This document shows, one piece after another, positions 24,650 to 36,049 of a stretch of 64,000 nt of DNA. The DNA is from Streptococcus sanguinis. GTDB taxonomy: Bacteria; Bacillota; Bacilli; Lactobacillales; Streptococcaceae. Position 1 is the first letter of the stretch; each line of letters starts with the position of its first letter. The notes under the pieces are model-generated. The model ran no database searches. It was not told the origin of the DNA and saw only the letters and a list, made by a program, of their open reading frames with translations. Location: positions 1,612,001 to 1,676,000 of the forward strand of contig NZ_LR134002.1 of the NCBI RefSeq assembly GCF_900635155.1. Direction: 5' to 3'. The translations under genes were made by a program, and so were the position numbers.

Positions 24650-24679
24650 AAAAGAAGCTAATCAAAATAGATCAGCTTC
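24650..24679 (-). terminator. flp terminator
   Basis: GAAGCTGATC/GATTAGCTTC hairpin followed by TTTTTT. The flp stop codon lies inside the hairpin. Confidence 0.8.
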
Positions 24680-25358
24680 CAGCAAGGTATTTCATGAAAT
24701 ATTCTTTATCCTTAAAAGTTAATTTTTTATGATCATATTCAATCCGACCTTCATCCAAGAGCTTTTTCAGAACTTGATTGACCGTTTCCCGGGTCGTAGC
24801 TCCTAGCTTTGCCAACTCTTTCATACTAATAGGAAATGGCAGACCGTCTCCCTCCTTGCACAAATCCATGCAGAGCAGTGATAGAGACTGGATAACACGC
24901 TCACTGGCACTGGCCGCTACGACATTTCGCAATCTCAATTCCTGAAATTCCAAGATTTGCGATAGCCGCTTGGTAATGAACAACAGCTGGTCCACACTCT
25001 TCTTAGAATATTCTTCAAACAAATCGATAGGAATAGAGAAATATTCGACATTGGTGACAGCGCTGGCAGTGTAATGATAGCGTTCATCAAAAAACATTCC
25101 TCCATATGGGAAAACACTGTTTTTCTTGACATAATCCATATAAGAAAATGTGTCTGTCGAATCATACTGCTCAATCCGCACATAGCCTTGAGACAAGAGG
25201 AAAAGACGCTCACGACGATCCCCCGCAAAAAAGATAATTTGTCCTTTAGGAATCTTACGATACTGAATCTCTACAGCCAATTTATCGAAAAGCTCCACTG
25301 GCAGATTGACAAAGGCAGGATGCTGCCGGATATACTGATAATGCTCCTTGGTAATCAT
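24672..25358 (-). CDS. flp: CRP/FNR-like regulator of the ADI operon (Flp)
   Basis: 228 residues with an N-terminal cyclic-nucleotide-type beta barrel (GQIIFFAGDRRERLFLLSQGYVRIEQ) and a C-terminal HTH (SMKELAKLGATTRETVNQVLKKLLDEGRIEY). No cysteine cluster for an iron-sulfur centre is visible at the N terminus. Its place before arcA is as in S. gordonii, where Flp activates arc genes under low oxygen. An extended -10 (TGGTATAAT, 25388-25393) overlaps the end of the neighbouring sdpI-like unit. Confidence 0.88.
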   Translation of the reverse strand: MITKEHYQYIRQHPAFVNLPVELFDKLAVEIQYRKIPKGQIIFFAGDRRERLFLLSQGYVRIEQYDSTDTFSYMDYVKKNSVFPYGGMFFDERYHYTASAVTNVEYFSIPIDLFEEYSKKSVDQLLFITKRLSQILEFQELRLRNVVAASASERVIQSLSLLCMDLCKEGDGLPFPISMKELAKLGATTRETVNQVLKKLLDEGRIEYDHKKLTFKDKEYFMKYLAGS

Positions 25359-25405: not shown

Positions 25406-25903
25406 TTACAGGCAGAAAACAGCCATTATAAAAATAAGAAAGCCTAGCAAAACTAAAAGATGTGCCCACTTTCTATTCATGGGTTTTCTATCCGCCTGGA
25501 CTTTTTTCGGCAGATAATTTCCCATAATTATAAAAACCACACCAACGATCACAGTTGCTATTTTACGGATATCAAAGTCCTCGTCTAAGCCCCCATAGAT
25601 AGTCGCCATATAGAGTAAGACAAAGCTAAAGGGGAAGACCCAGCGAATAAGGTGTTTAAAAGTGGGATTTAAGATATCTTTAGCAACAGTAGACCAATAA
25701 ATCATAACTTCTAGCAGCATCATGACAATTGGAAAAGCAGATATTATTAGAAACTTAGGTAAAAAAGCATTTCCTTTTCCAGATAAGTCAAAGTGAATAG
25801 ACAAGTTTTCTGGTAATGTTTGATAGACCCATACGGCATATAAAACTGGCAAGAGCATGACGCCAAGCGCCCAACCTAATTCTTGTAAACTATTTTTTTT
25901 CAT
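25406..25903 (-). CDS. SdpI-like membrane protein 1 (DUF1648 type)
   Basis: 165 residues with about four to five membrane helices. It begins with a short polar N terminus, then the DUF1648-like pattern LLPVLYAVWVYQTLPENLSIHFDLSGKGN (the LPxxIxxHFdxxG motif) and ends NYLPKKVQADRKPMNRKWAHLL. SdpI of Bacillus is both immunity protein and signal receptor for the SdpC toxin; this one is shorter. ATG 25903 is used (MKKNSLQ), which overlaps the end of sdpR1 by 14 nt, so the two are translationally coupled. Confidence 0.82.
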   Translation of the reverse strand: MKKNSLQELGWALGVMLLPVLYAVWVYQTLPENLSIHFDLSGKGNAFLPKFLIISAFPIVMMLLEVMIYWSTVAKDILNPTFKHLIRWVFPFSFVLLYMATIYGGLDEDFDIRKIATVIVGVVFIIMGNYLPKKVQADRKPMNRKWAHLLVLLGFLIFIMAVFCL

Positions 25904-26171
25904 TTTCGTTTCCTCCTCCAAGAGATTGAAACCAGGCAAGAATTTCTTCAAAAACAGTGACATCTAAGCTGTAATAAATAAAGTTCTTCTGCTTTTCTTC
26001 TATGAGCAGACCGGCTTTCTTTAGCTGAGAGAGGTGGTAGGATACCGTCGCAGGAGTCAGCTCAAAAGCTTGAGCAATCTCCCCAGCAGACTTCGGACCA
26101 TGCTTGAGCATTTCCAGAATCCCCCTTCGAACTGGGTCAGCTAGGGCTTTAAGCGTTTGACTGATGCCCAT
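25890..26171 (-). CDS. SdpR-like ArsR-family repressor 1
   Basis: 93 residues: a winged helix with LADPVRRGILEMLKHGPKSAGEIAQ and recognition helix TPATVSYHLSQLKKAGL. No cysteines, so not a classical metal sensor. In Bacillus SdpR represses sdpRI until SdpI holds it at the membrane. It shares most residues with the repressor at 27919. It overlaps the yhfC-like gene by 23 nt and sdpI1 by 14 nt. The 20-bp inverted repeats upstream are the likely operators. Confidence 0.88.
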   Translation of the reverse strand: MGISQTLKALADPVRRGILEMLKHGPKSAGEIAQAFELTPATVSYHLSQLKKAGLLIEEKQKNFIYYSLDVTVFEEILAWFQSLGGGNENEKK

Positions 26172-26937
26172 GATTGAACCTTTCCTTCAGGTAAACTTTC
26201 AAAATTTTCTTGGTCAGAAAGACTAGTGCCACTACTTCTACTAAGAGCAGAGCCTCAACAGCCAGTGGCGGAAGAAAGCCTACCTGAGCCAGAGCAGGCG
26301 CTAGGTCAATCAGGGCGTGAAGTCCCAGAGCAGCTAAAAAATACACTGGAGCCTTCTCCTTGACCGCCTTCCAAACCCAGAAGGTCAGAAGGATTTGAAT
26401 GAGAATAGCCAAGATCCGCTCAAGAGCCAAAAGATAGATGCTGCCAGCGCTCATGGAACGGACATTGTCAATAACTGCTTGAGGAATTTGAGCCAGCGTC
26501 TGAGCATTCCCCTGAGTCACTACTTGAGCTATAACCCAAAAGTTTAAGAGACTGACAATACCAACAAACAAAGCCTCAATACCACCATGACCCAAGCCAT
26601 AGGCCACACCATCCCTAAAGGTCAGTGGACGCTTCTTTTGCAACCAGTAAAAGATGACCCAGCGGGCTGTTTCTTCAAAGATAGCTGCCGCAGCAATACC
26701 ATAAAGAACATATAGCCAAGGTTTTTCCGTCTGCAAAGCGATAGTTCCATCAGCCTGAGGCTGTAAAACGATACGATGCAAAATATTTTCCAGAACTTGA
26801 CTCGATAAATAAAAACCGACTCCCCCTAAAAGAAAGACTAATAGAGAAATGTGCTTGGTCTTTTTAAAATAAACCAAAGGAACAAGGACTGTCCCTAAAA
26901 TCAGCAGCATAGCAATCAAGATATGAATGGAAATCAT
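26149..26937 (-). CDS. YhfC-family intramembrane metalloprotease
   Basis: 262 residues, about eight membrane helices. Glutamate pair in AIFEETARWVIFYWLQKK (about residue 93) and the second motif YGLGHGGIEALFVG (about 118-131) match the YhfC family related to CAAX proteases. Start ATG 26937 has AGGAG upstream; an earlier in-frame start overlaps the promoter. First gene of a coupled yhfC-sdpR-sdpI operon, where it could process or degrade a membrane peptide. Substrate unknown. Confidence 0.8.
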   Translation of the reverse strand: MISIHILIAMLLILGTVLVPLVYFKKTKHISLLVFLLGGVGFYLSSQVLENILHRIVLQPQADGTIALQTEKPWLYVLYGIAAAAIFEETARWVIFYWLQKKRPLTFRDGVAYGLGHGGIEALFVGIVSLLNFWVIAQVVTQGNAQTLAQIPQAVIDNVRSMSAGSIYLLALERILAILIQILLTFWVWKAVKEKAPVYFLAALGLHALIDLAPALAQVGFLPPLAVEALLLVEVVALVFLTKKILKVYLKERFNHGHQSNA

Positions 26938-26955: not shown

Positions 26956-27030
26956 GTTTTGGTTTTTTTCTAAATAGATTATACATCTTTCCTTTCTTTC
27001 TGTCAAATCTATTTCGAGTTTTTTCTAAAT
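26956..27030 (-). promoter_or_regulatory. Promoter of the yhfC-sdpR-sdpI operon flanked by two operators
   Basis: TTGACA (27001-27006), 17 nt, TATAAT (26978-26983). One inverted repeat (27011-27030, arms ATTTAGA and TCGAAAT read on the minus strand) ends 4 bp upstream of the -35. The other (26956-26975, arms ATTTAGA and CCAAAAC) begins 2 bp after the -10. Both have 7-6-7 spacing. The arrangement suggests repression, perhaps with a loop between sites 55 bp apart. Confidence 0.8.
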
Positions 27031-27073
27031 AACTTCAATCTAAAAATCATCAAGCTCTACTGCAATAAAAAAC

Positions 27074-27379
27074 GGCTCTATAATTTCTGTAGTGGGTAAA
27101 ACCACTGTAGGAATGATGGAGCCTATTTGTTGTAGAAAAAAAGTCCCATAAGACCTATAATGAAAAGCGACAAAACCATCATTAGAAAGACTCTTATGGA
27201 ACAGTTCAATTTTATCACAAACTTACTGGGAATAAAAGACCCTAACATCATAATCTTGGATGTTCTAGATGCTGGAACTCATAAAGAAATCATCGCTTTG
27301 AACATCAAAAAGGAGAGGACTGATTTAGTCCTCTCCAGATTATAACTTCTCATCAACCCACTACAGTTGACAAAGAGTC
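27074..27379 (+). mobile_element. Internally deleted ISL3-family element (IS1167-like), 306 bp
   Basis: Ends are 24-bp imperfect inverted repeats (27074-27097 and 27356-27379), sharing CTGTAGTGGGT at the inner side and GNCTCT at the outer side. Inside is only the first part of an ISL3-type transposase, closed by a perfect GGAGAGGACT/AGTCCTCTCC hairpin (27312-27336). No 8-bp target duplication could be seen. It separates the two sdpR-sdpI units. Confidence 0.75.
27196..27345 (+). pseudogene. ISL3-family transposase, N-terminal fragment
   Basis: 49 codons reading MEQFNFITNLLGIKDPNIII and THKEIIALNIKKE, matching the start of IS1167/ISL3 transposases. The zinc-finger and catalytic parts (over 350 residues) are missing. 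Not functional alone. Confidence 0.8.
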
Positions 27380-27390
27380 AGAATGAGACT

Positions 27391-27424
27391 AAACAAAAGC
27401 GCACAATCTGTGCACTTTGTTTTC
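27391..27424 (-). terminator. Terminator after sdpI2
   Basis: AAAGTGCACA/TGTGCGCTTT hairpin (one G-U) followed by TGTTT on the minus strand, just after the sdpI2 stop. Confidence 0.7.
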
Positions 27425-27431
27425 ACTTAAT

Positions 27432-27941
27432 TTACAAAAGAAAGAGTCCCACTAGTACGGCTGTCAATCCGACCAGGATAAAGAGGTAGGCTAGCCAACG
27501 CGGCGCTGGTTTTTCTTCCACCACCATTTTCTTAGGCATATAATTTCCAGAAATTAGAAACATTACCCCCGAAAAAATCGCTACAATTTTATTAATGTTG
27601 AAGTGGGAATCAAGAGCATAGAACAGAATGGAAAGATAGACAGCAATATGGTTCAAAGGAACAATCCAAAGGACGAAGCGGGCAAAAGCGGGCTTGGTGA
27701 TTTCTCGGTAAGCCGTTGCCCCATAAACAATCAGCTGTATCAAAGTCATAAAGATTGGCAGACCCCAGATAAAGAGAAATTTGGGTGCATACTCAAATGT
27801 CGGGCTAATCAGCGACACGAAATTGATCCTAATATTCTCTGGCAAACTAGGATAAATCCATAAGGCATAAGCAAGTGGCAGCCAAATAACCAAGAAAGTC
27901 AGCAGCAATTCCCTAAGGTTATTTCTCAGTTTCGTTTTCAT
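27432..27941 (-). CDS. SdpI-like membrane protein 2
   Basis: 169 residues, about four to five helices. Shares with SdpI-like 1 the start pattern VIWLPLAYALWIYPSLPENIRINF, the middle ITKPAFARFVLWIVPLNH, and the end SGNYMPKKMVVEEKPAPRWLAYL. The ATG overlaps the end of sdpR2 by 23 nt. A regulator-immunity pair equivalent to the 25.4-26.2 kb pair but without a yhfC-like gene in front. Confidence 0.82.
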   Translation of the reverse strand: MKTKLRNNLRELLLTFLVIWLPLAYALWIYPSLPENIRINFVSLISPTFEYAPKFLFIWGLPIFMTLIQLIVYGATAYREITKPAFARFVLWIVPLNHIAVYLSILFYALDSHFNINKIVAIFSGVMFLISGNYMPKKMVVEEKPAPRWLAYLFILVGLTAVLVGLFLL

Positions 27942-28206
27942 TATTTTTCCCTCCTAGCGAGGCAATCCAGACCAAAATTTCCTCAAAAACCGTGGCATCT
28001 AAATGGTAGTAAATGTAATTTTTCTGCCGTTCTTCATAGATGAGCCCCGCTTTTTTCAACTGGGACAAATGGTAGGATACCGTCGCTCCCGTCAAATCGA
28101 AGACTTGAGCGATTTCACCAGCCGACTTAGGACCTTTTTTTAATATTTCTAATATTTCCCGCCGAACTGGATCAGCTAGGGCTTTCATGGTTTCACTAAT
28201 TCCCAA
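27919..28206 (-). CDS. SdpR-like ArsR-family repressor 2
   Basis: 95 residues, very similar to the repressor at 25890 (for example LADPVRREILEILKKGPKSAGEIAQ and ATVSYHLSQLKKAGL). The recognition helices differ by one residue (TGATVSYH versus TPATVSYH), so both probably read the same operator. The start is TTG at 28206, with AAGAGGT upstream. No cysteines. Confidence 0.87.
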   Translation of the reverse strand: MGISETMKALADPVRREILEILKKGPKSAGEIAQVFDLTGATVSYHLSQLKKAGLIYEERQKNYIYYHLDATVFEEILVWIASLGGKNNENETEK

Positions 28207-28231
28207 TTTTGATACCTCTTAAAATTGATTT

Positions 28232-28330
28232 CTAGCTAAGGACAAACAAAGCAACTAGCTCTAGATAAGTCATGGCTCCTACAAATGTAAGCAAGGCGCT
28301 ACTCAAACGGACAAGATTTTCTGCCAGCAA
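28232..28330 (-). CDS. Possible leader peptide before sdpR2
   Basis: A 32-codon frame starting TTG, hydrophobic with one positive and few acidic residues (core RLSSALLTFVGAMTYLELVALFVL). An AGGAGG stands only 1 nt before this TTG, too close for normal initiation; an internal ATG preceded by TAGGAGCC would give 13 residues. It lies between the sdpR2 promoter and sdpR2. It could be a peptide gene, a relic, or chance. Confidence 0.3.
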   Translation of the reverse strand: MLAENLVRLSSALLTFVGAMTYLELVALFVLS

Positions 28331-28343
28331 TCCTCCTAAAACT

Positions 28344-28401
28344 ATTTAGAGAACTTTCAAATTCTTTTCTCCATTATACTGTTTTTGAGGATAAAAGACA
28401 A
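28344..28401 (-). promoter_or_regulatory. sdpR2-sdpI2 promoter and operator
   Basis: TTGTCT (28396-28401), 17 nt, TATAAT (28373-28378). A related inverted repeat follows at 28344-28363 (clear arm TCTAAAT on the minus strand, weaker partner AATTTGA), about 10 bp after the -10 and before an AGGAGG. Confidence 0.7.
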
Positions 28402-28408
28402 GGAGGGC

Positions 28409-29317
28409 TTAGCTAAACACTTGCTTTTTCTTGGCTAGATAGGCGGTGAGAAGAGCAGCCAGCGCCATAACGATGACTGCTATCAGCCCGCCTGATAGAG
28501 GTTCGCTTGGCGTTCCTGCTAAGAAACTGTTGGCTTGACTGGTCAAAGTCGTCTGTAAGAAACTACCGTGCTGGAGATTGTTGCCCGTCCCAATCACTCC
28601 AAAGACACCTAGATAAATCATGTTATTAGCCGCATGCAGCGCTATGACCAGCCAGAGATTGTCCGTCAGTGCAAAAAGGAGGGAAAGGAAAATCCCGGTC
28701 AGAAAGACATTGAGGATATAAAGGACGGGCGTTCCACCTTTAAAAATGTGGATAACCGCAAAGAGCAGGGAGTTGAGCAGGACAGCCGGTAGCAAGTCCA
28801 GCTTGGTGCGGAGTTTGTTCATGACAAAGCCGCGGTAAATCATCTCTTCAGCCAGCGCCTGAAAGAAGAAATTGACCAGGAAAAAGAGCCAAATTCCTAG
28901 ATTGAACTGCTTTTCGACTTGAATGTGGAGCTGTCCGCCGAGCAGATTGAAGCCCACAGCCAGAAGGACTAAGAAGAAACCCAGTGCTGTACCAAGCAGC
29001 AGATTGAACCCTAATTTTTCCTTCCAAAGTCCAAAACTGGCAAGGCTGCGCCGCTCCCAAAATTTAGCGACGAAGAGAATGATGAGTAAACTGCTACCTA
29101 AAAAGACGGATAAAGAAACGATGCCTATCAGTAAGCGATTGGCGTCCGTCATGCTCGGCAGCAAGAGCCATTGGGACAAAGCTCCGCTGATGAGGCTTCC
29201 CGCAGCAATCGCAAGAAAAGCCAGCGGCAGGCTCAGCCACCAATTTTTTGCCCCTGCTTCTTCTTGCAAGATTTCCAGACTAGAGCGATGGGCTGTCTTT
29301 TGATAAGTATGTGTCAT
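28409..29317 (-). CDS. CPBP-family intramembrane metalloprotease 1 (Abi/CAAX type)
   Basis: 302 residues, about eight helices. Catalytic motifs: EEMIYRGFVMNKLR (EExxxR, about 159) and LLFAVIHIFKGG (FxxxH), then ALHAANNMIYLG. Such proteins are common beside bacteriocin genes, where some give immunity. ATG 29317 has GGAGG. It lies just upstream of sdpR2, but its own promoter region carries a LytTR-like direct repeat instead of the ATTTAGA repeat. Confidence 0.87.
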   Translation of the reverse strand: MTHTYQKTAHRSSLEILQEEAGAKNWWLSLPLAFLAIAAGSLISGALSQWLLLPSMTDANRLLIGIVSLSVFLGSSLLIILFVAKFWERRSLASFGLWKEKLGFNLLLGTALGFFLVLLAVGFNLLGGQLHIQVEKQFNLGIWLFFLVNFFFQALAEEMIYRGFVMNKLRTKLDLLPAVLLNSLLFAVIHIFKGGTPVLYILNVFLTGIFLSLLFALTDNLWLVIALHAANNMIYLGVFGVIGTGNNLQHGSFLQTTLTSQANSFLAGTPSEPLSGGLIAVIVMALAALLTAYLAKKKQVFS

Positions 29318-29394
29318 GTGTGACCTCCTTAAGGTGTATTTTCCCCTACACCCTTATCCTAACAAAAGAAGTACACCAAATCTAGCTCTTTTTG

Positions 29395-29424
29395 GTAAGT
29401 GGTTAGATTGCGCTAGTAAGTGGT
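29395..29424 (-). promoter_or_regulatory. LytTR-like direct repeat before CPBP gene 1
   Basis: ACCACTTAC-N12-ACCACTTAC on the minus strand; perfect 9-bp repeats with a 21-bp period, two helical turns. LytTR regulators (ComE, BlpR, HdrR, BrsR types) bind direct repeats with 12-bp spacing of about this size. No LytTR gene is in the window. Confidence 0.55.
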
Positions 29425-29445
29425 AGAAAAATCACCTAAAAAAGA

Positions 29446-30270
29446 TTAAGAAATCCCCTGCTGACTTTCTCTCTCTTCGCGCTTGGTCAGCCAAACGGCA
29501 ATGACAAGAGCAATGAGAGCGCTAAAAAGTCCAGTTGGACCAGGACCAAGGAATTTAAACGTTTCTACCCCACTAACAGTGAAAACGGTAGTTATCATGG
29601 CAACGGCATCAATGACCCCATGTCCAAAGGCTGGCAGCCAAATGGTTTTGCTACGTACATAGTAAATATCAAGGATAATCCCAAAAGAAATAGCCATGAT
29701 ATAATAGGGAATTAAATTTAAGAAACGCTCACCCAGCGTCCCCGCTCCAATCATATTGACAGGAAAATGCCAAATAGCCCAGATGAGACCACCAATGATT
29801 CGTCCCTTAGTCCGTCCGTAGCGCTCTTTCAAATAAGGATAGAGAATACCCCGCCAGCCGACTTCCTCGCCCAAGCCAGAAAGACTGATGACTAGAGTTA
29901 AGACCGTAAAAATCATTAAAATTTGAAGGGCGACTTGTGGGTTCAGGGCAAAAGCCAAATGCTGCGGAAAGGCAGCAAAATAGACAAGTGCGCCGCCAAG
30001 TATAATGCTACAAATGGCTAACCAGCAGGCTAGGTAATCGCGCCATTTACTGGCGAGCTTCAATTTCCAGCCGATAGACTTTACAGGAGCTTTAGCCAAA
30101 AAAGCAGCCACCATAGGGGCGAACATTACCACACTTGCGGATAAAATGTTACCGACAAGTTTCTGATTGTTAGCATAAAAGTAAGCTATGGCTAGCATAC
30201 CTGGCCAAGCGATCCCAAACGCCCAAGCTAGAAACCTTTTAATGGTTGAAGTTGAAATTGTGTTTTGCAT
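29446..30270 (-). CDS. CPBP-family intramembrane metalloprotease 2
   Basis: 274 residues, about eight helices. Motifs: GEEVGWRGILYPYLKERYG (EExxxR) and GLIWAIWHFPVNMIG (H-containing), plus PAFGHGVIDAVAM. Differs from CPBP 1 in sequence and fits the subgroup of larger CAAX-like proteases. Starts 30 nt after the AmpC-like gene with AAAGGAG, so likely the last gene of the peptide-ABC-SdpI transcript. Confidence 0.87.
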   Translation of the reverse strand: MQNTISTSTIKRFLAWAFGIAWPGMLAIAYFYANNQKLVGNILSASVVMFAPMVAAFLAKAPVKSIGWKLKLASKWRDYLACWLAICSIILGGALVYFAAFPQHLAFALNPQVALQILMIFTVLTLVISLSGLGEEVGWRGILYPYLKERYGRTKGRIIGGLIWAIWHFPVNMIGAGTLGERFLNLIPYYIMAISFGIILDIYYVRSKTIWLPAFGHGVIDAVAMITTVFTVSGVETFKFLGPGPTGLFSALIALVIAVWLTKREERESQQGIS

Positions 30271-30300
30271 ATAAAATGCTCCTTTCTGTCATTTGTAAAA

Positions 30301-32100
30301 TTATAAAGTCCACCATTGGTATAGCGACCAATAGAAAATATTAAAAGCGATGATAAAAGCGACGGAGCTAGTTGCTAGCGTGAGGTACTTATTCCCTTGC
30401 TTCAACCTCGCTTTGAAGAAGGGCAGATAGGGAAGAAAAGCACTAATCAGCAAGACCACAGCAAGCAAGGCAAACAGTTGGAAATGCCCCGTCAAACCAG
30501 CGAGATCGAAAGAATTTTTCGCGAGAATAATTGAGAAAAATGAGAACAAATTACGAAAAGCCCAAAGAATAAGGAAGCCAGTCAGATAATGCCAACTAGA
30601 CCAGACAACCGAACCTGTTCCCTTGTTTTTCCTAGTGAGCAAACGATACAATTTTGCCAAAATACCGCTGAGATAGCAAAGGGCGACATACAGTGCGGCA
30701 AGCCCAGCGAGTAATAAACTACCATAATCTTTGATAACATCCAACAAGGGCAGCTTTGTCCTATCTGAAATAGGCAGGTTCAGAATATAGTGCCCTCCTC
30801 TTTCTCCTGCCGTCCAAAAACCAAAATAGTCTTTGATAGCCGCATTTTCAGAAGGGTTAGTTAGATAGCTAGTCGACTTGAAAACCCTAAATATAGATAG
30901 GGGACCTCCACTATAAATACGCGCTTCGCGGTAAAAACCAGCTTGAAAGTCCTTTTGAGCTGCCTTTGAGGCTTCTTTTTTCTTACCGTAAATGAGGTCA
31001 GGCATGCTAAGAGCGAAATGAAACTCATTTCTTTGATTGACTGTAACGACTGAGCCAATCCCTGACTTCAAATCAAGCAAGAGGCTGGTCGTAAAGCCTG
31101 GTGAGTTTCCCCCGTGCCCAAAAGTTCTGGTGTTTTCAAACTCCGTCACCCAAAGTCCGTGAGCATTGACGGGAATATCTGTACCCGGATAAGTATGGCT
31201 AGCGCTGTAAAAATTCTCCCAAGTCTCTGCCCTTTTAAAGAGCTTCTCCTTTTGCAGGAGGGCTTGGGCAAATTTCTTGATGTCGGCAAATGTTCCTGTT
31301 GCCCGCCCCGCTGGATATTCTCCAAGAACAAAGGGTTGGTCGCCTTTTAGTAAGTCTCCATTTGTATCATAAGTTTTCTCCTTCTCCCGCTGTTTTTGTA
31401 CAAATACATTATCTGATAAATCAGGTTTGAGTGCGGTGTGTTTCATACCCAAGGGCTGGAAAATATGCTCGTGGACATAGTCGGCAAAGGATTGCCCGCT
31501 AATGCGCTCCACGATATAGCCCGCCAGCGCTGTTCCATAGTTTGAATAGGATGTCACCGTCCCCGGCTCATAAATCTGAGACGGAGTTTTTTTCATCAAT
31601 GCTCCTAAATCCTTGTCGGAGCCTATATACAAAGGGTAATCTTCAAAGCCCGCTTGGTGGTTCATGAGGTCCAGCATGGTAATGGGCTTGTCGTATTTGA
31701 GATTTTTTAGGAGATTTTGGGGCAGATACTCCCTGATGTCCGTTTTCAGGTCAATCTTGCCCTCCTCCCAAAGCTGCATGACGCTGACCCAGACGGTGAT
31801 TTTGGTGGTTGAACCCCACTCGAAGACCGACTTGTCATCCACCGCTAGCTTCTTTTCCTTGTCCGTATAGCCGAAGTTCTTTTGATAGAGAGTATTGCCG
31901 TCTTTGTCAAAGACCGTTGTTGCCAGTCCTGCGCTGGTTTTTTCGTGTTCTTGGTAGTAATTTTCAATCTTCTGACCGATTTGGTCGTAAGACGTGCCTG
32001 ACGGCAATTTTTGCTGGTCGGCGTAAGCGTGGGCTGCTCCAAAAGCTAGCAAGCCACACGTTACCAGCGCCACAGTGCTTTTCAAAAATGATGATTTCAT
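30301..32100 (-). CDS. Membrane-bound serine hydrolase, class C beta-lactamase (AmpC/Pbp4*) fold
   Basis: 599 residues. Signal peptide (MKSSFLKSTVALVTCGLLAFGAA) and then a beta-lactamase-like domain: STTK nucleophile motif (about residue 96), YSNYG (YxN) and HGGNSPGF (HxG). The last 150 residues hold four membrane helices. ATG 32100 is used as it has TGGAG and starts the signal peptide. Related proteins act as esterases or D-stereospecific peptidases, so a role in peptide trimming or envelope change is possible but not shown. Confidence 0.85.
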   Translation of the reverse strand: MKSSFLKSTVALVTCGLLAFGAAHAYADQQKLPSGTSYDQIGQKIENYYQEHEKTSAGLATTVFDKDGNTLYQKNFGYTDKEKKLAVDDKSVFEWGSTTKITVWVSVMQLWEEGKIDLKTDIREYLPQNLLKNLKYDKPITMLDLMNHQAGFEDYPLYIGSDKDLGALMKKTPSQIYEPGTVTSYSNYGTALAGYIVERISGQSFADYVHEHIFQPLGMKHTALKPDLSDNVFVQKQREKEKTYDTNGDLLKGDQPFVLGEYPAGRATGTFADIKKFAQALLQKEKLFKRAETWENFYSASHTYPGTDIPVNAHGLWVTEFENTRTFGHGGNSPGFTTSLLLDLKSGIGSVVTVNQRNEFHFALSMPDLIYGKKKEASKAAQKDFQAGFYREARIYSGGPLSIFRVFKSTSYLTNPSENAAIKDYFGFWTAGERGGHYILNLPISDRTKLPLLDVIKDYGSLLLAGLAALYVALCYLSGILAKLYRLLTRKNKGTGSVVWSSWHYLTGFLILWAFRNLFSFFSIILAKNSFDLAGLTGHFQLFALLAVVLLISAFLPYLPFFKARLKQGNKYLTLATSSVAFIIAFNIFYWSLYQWWTL

Positions 32101-32137
32101 GATGATCTCCAATCATTATTTTCTATATTTCCTTCAC

Positions 32138-32242
32138 TTAAAAAGGAAAAAGAAAGAGCAAACTGAGTAGACCGAGAAGGAGCCAGATCCAGCCAAAGAT
32201 AAAGAATAAAAGCATTTTAACAAAAGTAAAAATATGAAACAT
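32138..32242 (-). CDS. 34-residue hydrophobic peptide
   Basis: Short gene with a strong AAAGGAG 7 nt before ATG. Peptide starts MFHIFTFVKMLLFFIFGW and continues as one Leu/Phe-rich helix ending FPF, with a single Lys. It lies 30 nt after sdpI3 and 37 nt before the AmpC-like gene, so it is inside the operon. Could be a structural or toxic membrane peptide, or a small subunit of a neighbour. Family not recognised. Confidence 0.6.
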   Translation of the reverse strand: MFHIFTFVKMLLFFIFGWIWLLLGLLSLLFLFPF

Positions 32243-32272
32243 GATTTTCTCCTTTCCTATCAGATTGCTATT

Positions 32273-32758
32273 TTAAAAGAGGAAGAGGCTGACCAGAAAC
32301 AGGATTGAGCCAACTCCTCCGAAGATATAAGCTAAAACGCGTGGAGCCGGCTCTTGGTCTGCCACTATTTTTCTCGTGAGGAAGTAGCTGACAGCATTAA
32401 GGATGATTGCAGACATAATCCCATTGACCTTAAATACCGGAAAAGCCGGATTGAGCCCATAAAGAAGAACGCTGATATAAACTACGGCATTGATAAAGGG
32501 AACCAGCCAGTAAAGGAAATGGACAAATTGCTTGTCGATAATCTCTTTAATAGTCGTCGTGTAGCAAACAATCAGTTGAATTACACTCAATAGAACTGGC
32601 AGAAACCAGATAAAGACTTGCTTGGGCATGCCTAGACCGCTATAGGGCAAATGCCCTCTGATTAGCTGAGATAGGTCTGCATAGATTGACAAAGCGTAGA
32701 TAAGCGGTAGCCAAATAACGATTAGGCTTGCCACTAATTCTTTCCATTTTAATTTCAT
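32273..32758 (-). CDS. SdpI-like membrane protein 3 (without its own SdpR)
   Basis: 161 residues, clearly a paralogue of the other two: VIWLPLIYALSIYADLSQLIRGHLPYSG at the start and RKIVADQEPAPRVLAYIFGG at the end. Most like SdpI-like 2. Strong GAAGGAGG site. It follows the ABC transporter by 14 nt. No repressor gene is attached, so it probably serves as immunity protein of the peptide-export operon. Confidence 0.8.
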   Translation of the reverse strand: MKLKWKELVASLIVIWLPLIYALSIYADLSQLIRGHLPYSGLGMPKQVFIWFLPVLLSVIQLIVCYTTTIKEIIDKQFVHFLYWLVPFINAVVYISVLLYGLNPAFPVFKVNGIMSAIILNAVSYFLTRKIVADQEPAPRVLAYIFGGVGSILFLVSLFLF

Positions 32759-32772
32759 TTTCTTTCCTCCTT

Positions 32773-34353
32773 TTATAATTCCAGACAGTCATCAAAGCGG
32801 TCTAAGAGTGCCCTGCCTTGATTATGAGTAATAACGATAACAATGCGGTCCTTGATGGACAAGATATAGTCCATGACTTCAGCCGCCAAGCTCGGGTCAA
32901 GATTACTGGTCGGCTCATCAAAAATCAGCACATCATAATCCTTAACCAAGAAACGCGCCAAATCAATCCGCTGCTTTTCACCATAGGAAACTTCCTGCCG
33001 CTCCAAATCCAGCTTCTTGCTCAAGAAAGCCTCATTAAAATGCAGACTTTGGTACAAGAAAGTTTGGTCAGGTGCATTTATATCTCTGTATAGCGCGATA
33101 TTGTCCGCCACACTTCCCTCGATAAAAAAGTCATTCTTTTGGATAAAGGCGATTTTCTGATAGAGACTGTCGCTTGCTAGCTGGCTGACCGCTTGACCAT
33201 TGACCATGATTTGACCAGCGTAGTCCTTGCTATCAAAATAATTGAGCAAGAGCTTCATCAAGGTCGACTTGCCCCGACCAGACTCGCCGATAATAGCATA
33301 GTGCTTGTCCTTGGCAAACTGATAAGAAAAATCCTGAAAGAGAGCCTTGTCGCCCAACTCCAGACCGAGATGTTCAAAATCAATCCGATCAATCGTTTCG
33401 GTCAGATTTTGAGCGGGCTCCGCTTCTTTCTTAGCCAACTTAGAATCAAAATCATTCTCAATATCCTTGACCGTGCTCATGAGATTTTTGTTATTGATAA
33501 AAAGCTGCAAAGGAGTGAAGACAAAGTTCAAAAGCTGAACACTGGCAATCAAAGCCCCAATGGTCAGAGACCCTTGGCTGACAAACCAAATCCCCAGAGA
33601 CATACAAAATATCTGAGACAGAAAGCTAAAGAACATCATCAGAGTCACAGCGCCCTCCTTAGCCGCATTATAGCTTTTTCTGGCTTGCTCAAAGTCGCTG
33701 TTGCTGCTAGACAGGTGCTCAACCACCCTTTTTTGGATTTGCAAAAGTTTGATTTGCTCAAAGCCTTCCAAAAAATTGGTGACTTGCTTCAAAAAGTAAT
33801 TGCTTTTCTGAGTGAAATTCGCTGTCGCCTTGCGCATCAATATCCCTGGAATTTGTGACGCAGCCATGGTCAAAAAAGAAATGAGAATAAAGCCCAGAGC
33901 CATGCGCCATTCAATCCAAAAAATAGCCAGTGTACTGATAAAAACTGAAGAAAAGGCAGCCACAATATCACAGCGCGGGGTCAAGTAATTCTCTTGGTAA
34001 ATATCCATATTCTTGGTCGTTGTGTTGAGATAGCTATTTTCCTGCTCGGAAGCCTTGTCATGCAAATTCTTGTCATAAAAAGAATGGAAAAGCCTCGTTT
34101 TGACTTCTTCCAAGACTTGCTTATTATGATTGTTCTTGAACCAAATAGCCAGCAAGCTGCAAAGAGACCAAGCACAAGTGCAAAAAAGGCAGATAAAGAA
34201 TTGTCCAAGCAAGTTAGAATGAGCCTTCTGCGCACTGTCCACAACAACTCCCAGCTGCAAAGAAAACAAAGTGATAAAAATCGTTGCTCCAATGCTAAAG
34301 ATAGTCGCACCCAGATAAGAAGCGCGGTATTTCCGTAAAATTTCTTTCAACAT
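32773..34353 (-). CDS. ABC transporter, fused membrane and ATPase domains
   Basis: 526 residues. Six membrane helices in residues 1-280, then ATPase: Walker A GESGRGKST (about 356), signature VSYGEKQRIDLARF in place of LSGGQ, Walker B DVLIFDEPTS and H-loop VIVITHNQGR. Shorter than most exporters and lacks a C39 peptidase domain, so it would not cleave a leader. Probably a homodimer. Its start overlaps the 40-residue peptide gene by 7 nt, tying the two together. Confidence 0.88.
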   Translation of the reverse strand: MLKEILRKYRASYLGATIFSIGATIFITLFSLQLGVVVDSAQKAHSNLLGQFFICLFCTCAWSLCSLLAIWFKNNHNKQVLEEVKTRLFHSFYDKNLHDKASEQENSYLNTTTKNMDIYQENYLTPRCDIVAAFSSVFISTLAIFWIEWRMALGFILISFLTMAASQIPGILMRKATANFTQKSNYFLKQVTNFLEGFEQIKLLQIQKRVVEHLSSSNSDFEQARKSYNAAKEGAVTLMMFFSFLSQIFCMSLGIWFVSQGSLTIGALIASVQLLNFVFTPLQLFINNKNLMSTVKDIENDFDSKLAKKEAEPAQNLTETIDRIDFEHLGLELGDKALFQDFSYQFAKDKHYAIIGESGRGKSTLMKLLLNYFDSKDYAGQIMVNGQAVSQLASDSLYQKIAFIQKNDFFIEGSVADNIALYRDINAPDQTFLYQSLHFNEAFLSKKLDLERQEVSYGEKQRIDLARFLVKDYDVLIFDEPTSNLDPSLAAEVMDYILSIKDRIVIVITHNQGRALLDRFDDCLEL

Positions 34354-34469
34354 TTAATTTTTCCTTCCAATTTTCGTCTATTTTTGAAAACGATCCAAGA
34401 CGGGATTGCCCAGCAGACGGATAAAACCGTGAGCAAGCCTATAAGCAATAAAAGTAATCCTCTTTTCAT
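34347..34469 (-). CDS. 40-residue membrane peptide, paralogue of the 46-residue peptide
   Basis: Strong AAAGGAG before ATG. Starts MKRGLLLLLIGLLTVLSVCW and ends FKNRRKLEGKIKC: one helix followed by a basic tail. Aligned with the next peptide it shares the pattern IGLxTxLSxxWAxxSW then (F/Y)KN. Overlaps the ABC gene start by 7 nt, implying coupled translation. Could be the exported peptide or an accessory subunit. Confidence 0.7.
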   Translation of the reverse strand: MKRGLLLLLIGLLTVLSVCWAIPSWIVFKNRRKLEGKIKC

Positions 34470-34489
34470 CTTTTCTCCTTTATCTATCT

Positions 34490-34567
34490 ATTTAGAAAAT
34501 TTTCTAAATAAAGAGTACGAAACGAAGCAATCTAATCCTTCTTAGGTATTTCGATTTGTTTCTAAAT
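34490..34567 (-). promoter_or_regulatory. Two operators before the 40-residue peptide gene
   Basis: 34490-34509 is a perfect 20-bp palindrome, ATTTAGAAAATTTTCTAAAT. 34548-34567 has arms ATTTCGA and TCTAAAT. Between them is a poor promoter (TACTCT at 34512-34517, 2 bp before the first operator; no good -35). The layout is the same as at the 46-residue peptide gene, but the promoter has decayed. Confidence 0.75.
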
Positions 34568-34578
34568 ACTCTGGATTA

Positions 34579-34607
34579 AAAAATCTAGTCTAGAAAAACT
34601 AGATTGC
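34579..34607 (-). terminator. Terminator after the 46-residue peptide gene
   Basis: AATCTAGT/ACTAGATT hairpin followed by TTTTTT on the minus strand. It closely resembles the terminator at 34936-34965. Confidence 0.8.
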
Positions 34608-34618
34608 CTATTTTGTAT

Positions 34619-34759
34619 TTAAAAATGTTTTTGATTGGATATTTTTTGCAGGTCGTCCTTATTTTTATAGAGCACCCAGGAAAAAACAGCCAGCCAAATG
34701 GATAGACCCGTCACTAGACCTACTACGGTTAGTAGGATTGAGTTTCTTGCTTTCTTCAT
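34619..34759 (-). CDS. 46-residue membrane peptide
   Basis: Strong AAGGAGG before ATG. Starts MKKARNSILLTVVGLVTGLS and continues IWLAVFSWVLYKNKDD, with a basic tail ending KHF. One membrane helix with positive N terminus, no double-glycine leader and no signal peptidase site I can defend. It has its own promoter, three operators and a terminator, so it can be made in excess over the downstream operon. A toxin or signal role is inference. Confidence 0.7.
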   Translation of the reverse strand: MKKARNSILLTVVGLVTGLSIWLAVFSWVLYKNKDDLQKISNQKHF

Positions 34760-34783
34760 TTTTCCTCCTTTTTGAGTAGAGAA

Positions 34784-34930
34784 ATTTAGAATTTTTTCTA
34801 AATAGCTTTTATAAAAAATTGCTCAGTGACTAATTAAACAGAGCAGAATGAAGTAATTAGAACATCTTCTAAATAGATTGTAACACTTCTCTTTCAAAAA
34901 AGCAAGAGGTATTTTGGTTTTTTTCTAAAT
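34784..34930 (-). promoter_or_regulatory. Promoter of the 46-residue peptide gene with three operators
   Basis: TTGCTT (34900-34905), 17 nt, TACAAT (34877-34882). Operators: 34911-34930 (arms ATTTTGG, TCTAAAT) 5 bp upstream of the -35; 34855-34874 (AATTAGA, TCTAAAT) 2 bp after the -10; 34784-34803 (ATTTAGA, TCTAAAT, perfect) in the 5' leader. The first two match the yhfC promoter layout almost exactly. Confidence 0.8.
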
Positions 34931-34935
34931 AGCTA

Positions 34936-34965
34936 TCAAAAAATCTAGCCTGTCTAGACTAGATT
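34936..34965 (-). terminator. Terminator after the class A beta-lactamase-like gene
   Basis: AATCTAGTC/GGCTAGATT hairpin followed by TTTTTT, directly after the stop codon at 34970. Confidence 0.8.
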
Positions 34966-34969
34966 GCTC

Positions 34970-36049
34970 TTAGTTCATATTAACCCGATGCCATTCATTG
35001 ATGACGTATGCTAACTGACCAACTTGCTCAATTCCGACACCACTGATCTCATCACTGGCCTCGGTGCTACCACCTAAATAAGCCGTATAGAGAGCTATAA
35101 TATAGGGCTTCTCTTCCATAACTAATGCATCCACATTGAGCGCCTCACGAACATATCCAGGCTTTTGATAGATGGTAATGTCACGCAGATAGCGCTTATA
35201 GTATTCACCTGGGAAGGATTCGCCTATATAATAAAGGATGTCCTTGTACTTTTCCTGATTTTTAGACAAATACTCAAGGACCTGAATATAGTAGTCCGTC
35301 GTGGTCTTATTATTCTCACGGCTGATCGTCTTAATATCAGCCTTGGACTGACCGTAGCGACTAAACATATCATAGGCCTTTTCCATGCCGCCTAGACGCT
35401 CTGCTAAAGCGTAGGCTGGAGTATTTTCAGAATAAACCAAGGAATATTCCTGCATGTCTGATATTCTCATAGCACCGTTGAAAGCACCGACATAGTTATC
35501 ATGCTCGCCCCTATATTCATAGTTAGTATTGGTAATATCAAACCGCTCGTCCATAGAAAGTTTGCCAGCAGCAACCTCATCTACTACCAGCATATTGAGA
35601 GGGAGCTTGTAGGTCGATCCCGCAGTCATAGGCTGGGTATCATTCATGGCAAAGGTCTTACCGGTCGTCAAATCCTTATAGGAAAATGCAACCTGGGAGG
35701 GTTCAATTCCCATTTCGGTCATATAAGCCTGAATGACCTGAGTCAAATCCAAATTTGCATAGTCAAATCGCAGCCCTAAAGCATCCATAGTCGGGCCGTC
35801 CGCTTCCATGACCTTCTGCTTCTCCTCTGGACTTTTCTCAACAGGCTTGGGCGTTTCTTCAACTGGTTTGGAATCAGGCTTGACTTTCTCTGTTCCCTGT
35901 TCTTGCTCGCCAGACTTTGCAAGTTGGGCAGCCTCTTGTGCTTTCTTTTCAATGGCCTTATTTCGTTCGGTTATAAAAAGGAAGATGAAGCCCAGCAGAC
36001 AAAGACAAGAAAGGATAGCTACGATAATCGTTACAATTTTTTTACTCAA
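34970..36049 (-). CDS. Membrane-anchored class A beta-lactamase-like serine hydrolase
   Basis: 359 residues. An N-terminal anchor helix (VTIIVAILSCLCLLGFIFLFI) and an acidic/Lys/Pro-rich linker precede a beta-lactamase-2 type domain. STYK (nucleophile) is in AGSTYKLPLNML, and SEN (SDN equivalent) is in YSENTPAYAL. The start is TTG at 36049 with AGGAGA upstream; the upstream frame reads through non-coding DNA. Such surface proteins in streptococci have unknown substrates. It is separated by a terminator from the peptide cluster. Confidence 0.82.
   Translation of the reverse strand: MSKKIVTIIVAILSCLCLLGFIFLFITERNKAIEKKAQEAAQLAKSGEQEQGTEKVKPDSKPVEETPKPVEKSPEEKQKVMEADGPTMDALGLRFDYANLDLTQVIQAYMTEMGIEPSQVAFSYKDLTTGKTFAMNDTQPMTAGSTYKLPLNMLVVDEVAAGKLSMDERFDITNTNYEYRGEHDNYVGAFNGAMRISDMQEYSLVYSENTPAYALAERLGGMEKAYDMFSRYGQSKADIKTISRENNKTTTDYYIQVLEYLSKNQEKYKDILYYIGESFPGEYYKRYLRDITIYQKPGYVREALNVDALVMEEKPYIIALYTAYLGGSTEASDEISGVGIEQVGQLAYVINEWHRVNMN

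Follow-up and report, generated by a model that had tools for sequence, protein, structure and literature searches.

Putative SdpR operators common to a resident operon and an accessory island in Streptococcus sanguinis

Eight copies of a 20-bp inverted repeat lie within about 8 kb of a 64,000-nucleotide stretch of the Streptococcus sanguinis genome (contig NZ_LR134002.1, forward-strand positions 1,612,001 to 1,676,000; hereafter the window, in which positions are counted from its first base). We consider it probable that these repeats are SdpR boxes, operators common to the resident operon yhfC-sdpR1-sdpI1 and to an accessory island beside it that encodes a second SdpR, further SdpI-like proteins, micropeptides and an ABC exporter. 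A first-pass annotation of the window had reported the repeat ATTTAGA-N6-TCTAAAT, with variants, at eight places between 26956 and 34930, and all eight were recovered at exactly those coordinates. Two copies (34490 and 34784) match the pattern perfectly, three (27011, 34548 and 34855) deviate at one position, two (28344 and 34911) at two and one (26956) at three. The annotation had assigned them to promoters of yhfC-sdpR1-sdpI1, of sdpR2-sdpI2 and of two peptide genes, and boxes do lie upstream of all four units. Its description of a single local regulon holds to this extent and needs amending in another, as the locus has two parts, the resident operon plus the accessory island.

The number of repeats in the window alone gave modest support for the pattern. 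With up to three mismatches, 13 matches were found against 6.4 expected, a count that was reached in 1 of 100 shuffles. The clustering of the repeats in one 8-kb stretch is strong support. Across the genome (2,360,223 bases in one contig), five matches carried at most one mismatch and all five fell inside this locus; many copies at unrelated genes, an outcome that the first-pass annotation had raised, were not seen, with zero matches at this stringency elsewhere in the genome. Allowing two mismatches gave 28 genome matches, seven of them at the locus, and 26 for the reversed pattern, which is the background level. When each site was scored with a matrix derived from the remaining seven, six of the eight exceeded every non-site position of the window, and 26956 and 28344 were each tied with one other position. 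Across 200 first-order Markov windows that took this window as their model, a total of 10 matches attained the score reached by all eight sites. These in-genome tests use a pattern taken from the same eight sites, and the independent test lies in other genomes. Because raw counts at two to three mismatches are near background, the cross-genome tests were used as evidence instead. A chance origin of the repeats, to which those raw counts might point, was rejected on the finding that the pattern holds in other genomes.

An SdpR homologue (E 1e-12 or better) was present in 87 of 197 Streptococcus genomes. The pattern ATTTAGA-N6-TCNAAAT was present in 80 of the 87 SdpR-positive genomes and in 25 of the 110 genomes without SdpR (Fisher P 4e-24), giving 295 matches when both strands are counted vs 20 for the reversed pattern. 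In every SdpR-positive genome the best sdpR locus was scanned up to 1200 bp upstream at a matrix score of 14; this threshold, and that of 13 used at class level, were chosen after earlier scans had been seen. Two boxes 50-66 bp apart were found at 69 loci, one box at 17 and none at 1, and the upstream regions held 155 boxes vs 2 in the same DNA reversed. Six island carriers appear among the single-box loci because their best match is sdpR2. A wider set of 108 sdpR loci, in which some genomes are represented twice and 14 loci come from other Lactobacillales, gave twins at 78, unpaired boxes only at 22 and none at 8 when read at a matrix score of 12. The spacing was 55-57 bp in 60 of 65 sequence-distinct twin operators, and the best -35 element began at offset 24 or 25 from the upstream box in 61 of them. 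Typically a box is followed after 4-5 bp by TTGACA-N17-TATAAT, and this after a further 2-3 bp by the second box; the yhfC promoter of the window is a perfect example of this layout. The position of its downstream box, 26956, is likewise boxed in twin operators of other Streptococcus genomes.

The association extends beyond the order. SdpR was detected at E 1e-28 in 81 class-level genomes outside Lactobacillales, and in the best-scoring 30 of these loci a box (score at least 13, the weakest being 13.02) stood within 200 bp upstream of sdpR in all 30 cases. No box was found in any of the 30 reversed sequences or, in the same 30 loci, elsewhere in the 3-kb locus. The SdpR proteins of these loci share 39-48% identity with SdpR2 across the aligned part, and most of the loci outside the order have one box. 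We conclude that in much of the class Bacilli the repeat is the predicted operator of SdpR-family repressors. Some variation was also noted. Three loci of Bacilli outside the order (L227, L231 and L234) have tandem SdpR boxes about 40 bp apart, many class-level loci outside the order show a TATCTAA-like extension after the box, and some Lactobacillales sdpR promoters (L106, L109, L111 and L114) have a variant palindrome containing TTAGCTAAAT near the standard place of the box.

This distribution bears on the idea that the repeats serve another regulator, for instance the CRP/FNR-type protein whose gene (24672-25358) neighbours sdpI1, or that they are RNA or terminator features. The adjoining CRP-family gene and the location of the palindromes near T/A tracts would suit such an origin. 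The box, however, tracks sdpR in Streptococcus and other Bacilli, where the presence of the CRP gene is uncounted, and at sdpR operons it stands on both sides of the promoter, and we regard this origin as highly improbable.

Both SdpR1 and SdpR2 score above the curated cut-off for SdpR and are, by that profile, members of the family. Each sdpR operon has a putative operator at its own promoter (boxes 26956, 27011 and 28344), recognized by sequence conservation only. The two proteins had been called nearly identical, which overstates their likeness, as 73 of 92 residues agree (79%). A single residue separates them in the segment LTxATVSYHLSQLKKAGL, in which the ArsR fold places the recognition helix. 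Neither protein contains cysteine, so a thiol metal site is absent, and each has only two histidines. The general ArsR/SmtB subfamily model is passed as well (79 and 78.4 bits, cut-off 55), as would be expected if SdpR were a metal sensor of the common ArsR/SmtB type and its membrane-protein neighbours incidental. We consider this very unlikely in view of the match to the SdpR-specific model, the lack of cysteine, the paucity of histidine and the overlap of sdpI with sdpR in both operons.

SdpR1 and SdpR2 would be expected to use common boxes. It is also conceivable, and in our view unlikely, that there is no joint regulon and that SdpR2 serves the island alone and SdpR1 the resident operon alone, each discriminating among the boxes. 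The repressors are 79% identical rather than identical, and the inner positions of the boxes vary, both of which would allow for discrimination. Against this stand the single residue difference across the recognition-helix segment, the overlap of box variants between the operons (26956 vs 34911 differ by one base) and the presence of the same core upstream of SdpR genes whose products are only ~40% identical.

Six of the eight boxes lie on the island. In five related loci without it (L035, L036, L037, L039 and L087), alignment to the window ends at 27048-27073 and resumes at 34867-34970; four of these empty sites have 49-60 bp unaligned between the flanks, and in L039 the alignments overlap. 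Since the flanks lie close together in all five related loci compared, 27072-34969 represents an insertion of ~7.9 kb. The island gene mpB46 was found in 6 of 284 Streptococcus genomes, the window's own included. Four further carriers match the records S. sanguinis SK355, KO16 and SK49 and S. gordonii DD07. In the sixth, G118 (L075, G118:C1:634000-650000), the island lies between other genes at another chromosomal site. There, mpB46 and the ABC gene are broken by stops, the hydrolase is truncated, and cpbp1, cpbp2 and the LytTR-type repeat described below were not found in the island copy; to judge from these lesions, the copy is decaying. It retains six boxes at a matrix score of at least 20. 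Of the codon changes between its sdpR2 and that of the window, 15 are synonymous and 2 non-synonymous. Relatives of mpB46 and SdpI3 are also present in S. oricebi.

S. gordonii DD07 shares 92-99.5% identity with the window over most of the island and 79% on the yhfC side, a contrast that would fit a recent transfer of the island. The island is probably an incoming element that has tapped into a switch already resident. At its left border is an ISL3-family-related remnant; among 10 matching plasmid records listed, two are annotated as ISL3 family transposase and eight have no such annotation. A plasmid search with the island itself gave no match, and a defence-system search with nine proteins matched the ABC protein alone, in what we read as generic ATPase matches. 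DD07 carries a further twin-box promoter, TTGACA/TATAAT (L076:5623-5698), and no gene is evident between it and the next boxes. It is about equally like the yhfC and mpB46 promoters of the window (76% each), so its reading as the resident yhfC promoter, split from its gene by the island, is no more than a possibility.

In the mechanism that we favour, SdpR1 and SdpR2 would bind the 20-bp palindromic boxes as winged-helix repressor dimers. At the common streptococcal sdpR promoter, twin boxes 55-57 bp apart bracket the -35 and -10 elements, with the upstream box abutting the -35; the downstream box should cover the start point, such that two SdpR dimers together would exclude RNA polymerase. 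The same box layout at the island peptide promoters would place the micropeptides, the ABC exporter, SdpI3, the serine hydrolase and probably cpbp2 under a repressor shared with yhfC-sdpR1-sdpI1. In B. subtilis, the presence of toxin leads SdpI to bind SdpR at the membrane. By analogy, an SdpI-like protein that meets a membrane-active peptide may hold SdpR at the membrane and lift repression. The derepressed island would yield more export and immunity proteins along with two small cationic peptides, which are candidates for a bacteriocin or a signal or may be small partners of the exporter. Foreign peptides may be the trigger, with the island providing immunity, or the island micropeptides may themselves be the trigger.

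Several observations weigh against this account. Nine of the 25 SdpR-negative Streptococcus genomes with a match carry at least two strand-matches. G175 is the one SdpR-positive Streptococcus genome without a box at its best sdpR locus, and G016 and G119 each have only a weak box (14.6), which lies 709 bp upstream of sdpR. Among other Lactobacillales, 7 of 14 sdpR loci had no box at a matrix score of 12, and the B. subtilis sdpR promoter itself was not among the loci read. Within the locus, the twin-operator promoter scan found no convincing consensus promoter between the mpA40 box pair, the regional count of promoter-like matches (18 vs 16.0 expected) is at chance level, and cpbp1 falls outside the SdpR scheme. 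SdpI2 and SdpI3 score below the Pfam cut-off. The codon changes between mpA40 and its G118 counterpart, three synonymous and three non-synonymous, are too few to prove selection. Finally, a search for the toxin SdpC (TIGR04032, E 0.001; B. subtilis control positive) detected it in none of the 197 Streptococcus genomes, that of the window included, and the B. subtilis trigger cannot therefore simply be carried over; SdpA and SdpB were not searched.

The island products were evaluated for what they might contribute. mpA40 and mpB46 are related to each other (38% over 34 residues, E 4e-9), each has by eye one hydrophobic stretch and cationic ends, and the S-W..K-N..L positions are invariant in 13 aligned sequences. 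Profile searches with mpA40, mpB46 and mp34 matched no bacteriocin model and no family model at cut-off. The Pfam scan found no C39 peptidase domain in the ABC exporter, and of the two marks of a class II bacteriocin with a peptidase-containing exporter, the C39 domain and a bacteriocin peptide model, neither was seen. The exporter resembles that of streptosactin, GggC, and those of related ribosomally synthesized and post-translationally modified peptides in being a fused ABC exporter; its 130.7 bits to the GggC model, however, are far below the cut-off of 750, and no radical SAM domain was found among the scanned island proteins. SdpI1, SdpI2 and SdpI3 are homologous by BLAST. SdpI2 is 29% identical to the SdpI of L091 and matches DUF1648 at E 0.019, below cut-off, and none of the three proteins matched the Pfam SdpI family, PF13630. 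With every beta-lactamase model among the 25 listed, the serine hydrolase falls far short of the cut-off.

Relatives of the ABC exporter offered a further view of its role. Thirteen were listed outside island carriers, and the neighbourhoods of seven streptococcal ones were read. ThiF-like and M16-peptidase genes lie beside relatives 40-46% identical to the exporter in four of the seven (L079, L082, L084 and L085); at L080, L081 and L083 no ThiF or M16 gene was seen beside the relative. Rgg-type regulators were confirmed near the relatives in L080, L083 and L085. The neighbourhoods hint that peptide export may be the trade of this ABC family. In L079 (11137-15245), the ABC relative is next to a ThiF-like protein, an M16 peptidase and a 30-residue open reading frame, and the loci that combine an ABC relative with ThiF and M16 genes could possibly represent an uncharacterised modified-peptide cluster in streptococci.

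The same inventory would be compatible with an island devoted purely to immunity, in which the boxes are still SdpR operators, the micropeptides, rather than being toxins or signals, are small membrane subunits or regulators of the exporter, and the products protect against the membrane-active peptides of others. We hold this to be a real possibility, at somewhat less than an even chance. CPBP proteins have an immunity role, and the three SdpI-like and two CPBP genes are of immunity type. In addition, mpA40 overlaps the ABC start codon, the exporter is free of a C39 domain, neither micropeptide matches a known bacteriocin family model, and three of the seven ABC-relative loci have no visible ThiF or M16 neighbour. 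In contrast, mpB46 is a separate gene with three boxes, and the ThiF-like and M16-peptidase genes at the other four loci make a peptide-maturation context. 

The shared-operator reading can also be carried further, to an island that works as an SdpC-free, self-amplifying equivalent of the SDP system, with mpA40 and mpB46 exported by the ABC protein and sensed by the SdpI-like proteins. This extension is speculative and, as we judge it, rather unlikely. If it is true, exported peptide would free all boxes at once and a few producers would switch their neighbours on, giving a peptide alarm or quorum-like circuit with no toxin precursor. SdpI2, SdpI3 and the CPBP proteins would then provide immunity, YhfC or CPBP proteins might trim the peptides, and a recipient that gained the island would have its resident SdpR1 circuit rewired.

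The SdpR/SdpI pair and its autorepression are already known. As in B. subtilis sdpRI, an SdpR-family repressor gene is followed by sdpI, with an operator at its own promoter; the present locus differs in the extra yhfC, in the twin boxes and in a box common to several units. The B. subtilis sdpI and sdpR genes are reported to be induced by SdpC (PMC6963621), and immunity by SdpI and YitQ is reported to be toxin-specific (PMC6818787). An "SdpR box" has been described in Nocardia terpenica, where a protein named SdpR gives DNase I footprints at two sites in its own promoter and also binds further promoters (PMC12185567); paired sites as such are thus not new. The Nocardia system differs in being actinobacterial, with a 14-nt box, a biosynthetic cluster and, in the text consulted, no link to SdpI. 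A title and abstract search, subscription journals excluded, returned no account of the box, of the streptococcal twin layout or of the island. In B. subtilis, SdpR and SdpI are known to serve a single toxin, for sensing and immunity, and in Streptococcus SdpR homologues occur in 87 of 197 genomes with that toxin undetected. Given a fixed operator code, any gene behind a box would be a candidate member of the response, and twin-operator reporters could show what SdpI senses without SdpC.

The features are listed in Table 1 and would group into the following transcription units. The twin boxes precede yhfC-sdpR1-sdpI1, a predicted resident operon of a kind present in other streptococci. A single box after the -10 element would control sdpR2-sdpI2. 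mpB46 is read as a unit alone, with twin boxes and a third box before its ribosome site, and two boxes 58 bp apart precede a putative mpA40-abc-sdpI3-mp34-hydrolase-cpbp2 unit. A last proposed unit, cpbp1, has no SdpR box and a direct repeat instead. The candidate mpB46 promoter was tied with another pick in a scripted scan and is not in the list of the regional promoter scan. The idea that an open reading frame at 28232-28330 is the remnant of a second yhfC was dropped for lack of support: shuffled peptides did as well in 214 of 500 cases, and the DNA match to yhfC (22) is below the shuffle maximum (27). In the G118 island copy the sequence of this frame is different.

Table 1. Features of the SdpR-box locus, in window coordinates
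Feature	Position	Strand	Remarks
sdpI1, SdpI-like membrane protein	25406..25921	-	Overlaps sdpR1; DUF1648 38 bits, cut-off 28.7
sdpR1, SdpR-family repressor, resident	25890..26171	-	NF033789 113.5 bits, cut-off 100
yhfC, YhfC-type intramembrane metalloprotease	26149..26937	-	PF10086, 208.4 bits; ATG chosen from sequence
SdpR box, downstream half of yhfC-sdpR1-sdpI1 twin operator	26956..26975	-	3 mismatches; 2 bp after -10
Promoter TTGACA-N17-TATAAT between yhfC boxes	26978..27006	-	12/12 consensus positions
SdpR box, upstream half of yhfC twin operator	27011..27030	-	1 mismatch
Accessory island, ~7.9 kb	27072..34969		Related strains: flanks 27071 and 34970 about 50-60 bp apart or closer
ISL3-family-related remnant at left border of island	27074..27297	+	17 plasmid records match
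sdpI2, SdpI-like membrane protein	27432..27941	-	37% to SdpI1 over 152 residues, E 3e-38
sdpR2, SdpR-family repressor of island	27919..28206	-	NF033789 116.9 bits, cut-off 100
SdpR box, single, downstream of candidate sdpR2-sdpI2 -10	28344..28363	-	2 mismatches; kept in G118
Candidate sdpR2-sdpI2 promoter TTGTCT-N17-TATAAT	28401-28373	-	Box 28344 downstream of its -10
cpbp1, CPBP/Rce1-like membrane protein	28409..29317	-	PF02517
LytTR-type direct repeat ACCACTTAC-N12-ACCACTTAC upstream of cpbp1	29395..29424	-	Not an SdpR box
cpbp2, CPBP/Rce1-like membrane protein	29446..30270	-	PF02517
Serine hydrolase, beta-lactamase family	30301..32100	-	PF00144 and a further C-terminal part
mp34, 34-residue hydrophobic peptide	32138..32242	-	91% in G118; 3 synonymous, 3 non-synonymous changes
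sdpI3, SdpI2 paralogue	32273..32758	-	40% over 154 residues, E 2e-32; no Pfam match
ABC exporter, fused permease and ATPase	32773..34353	-	PF00664, PF00005, overlapping PF13304, weak PF01935
mpA40, 40-residue single-transmembrane cationic micropeptide	34347..34469	-	Transmembrane segment by eye; stop overlaps ABC start
SdpR box, 20 bp upstream of mpA40 start codon	34490..34509	-	Perfect
SdpR box, upstream half of mpA40 pair	34548..34567	-	1 mismatch; spacing 58 bp
mpB46, 46-residue single-transmembrane cationic micropeptide	34619..34759	-	mpA40 paralogue; transmembrane segment by eye
SdpR box upstream of mpB46 ribosome site	34784..34803	-	Perfect
SdpR box, downstream half of mpB46 twin operator	34855..34874	-	1 mismatch
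Candidate mpB46 promoter TTGCTT-N17-TACAAT between boxes	34877..34905	-	By eye; 9/12 positions
SdpR box, upstream half of mpB46 twin operator	34911..34930	-	2 mismatches; spacing 56 bp

Joint control of all the membrane proteases by SdpR, as first proposed for this locus, does not extend to cpbp1, which has a LytTR-type repeat of its own. The repeat is a 9-bp direct repeat with a 12-bp spacer, located upstream of a promoter. The genome holds exactly three perfect instances of ACCACTTAC-N12-ACCACTTAC: one at cpbp1, one before a LytTR/LiaF-TM operon whose LytTR gene lies at about 387.9 kb of the genome, and one at a second cpbp/hydrolase locus (the latter two copies at L249:1501-1530 and L251:1501-1530). 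The -10 positions align among the copies. With up to one mismatch, the repeat is present in 97 of 147 Streptococcus genomes. The same ACCACTTAC-12-ACCACTTAC repeat is given for a LytTR regulatory system of S. anginosus, and the words CPBP and CAAX did not occur in a search of the available text of that paper (PMC6193735). The likeness to HdrRM/BrsRM-type LytTR systems (PMC6193735) lies in the repeat at cpbp1 and in a LytTR and LiaF-TM pair behind the repeat in the genome of the window; the difference is that it concerns cpbp1 alone and not the SdpR boxes. CPBP genes as predicted targets of a LytTR system may be new, and the island unites SdpR and LytTR sites, both putative, in one cluster.

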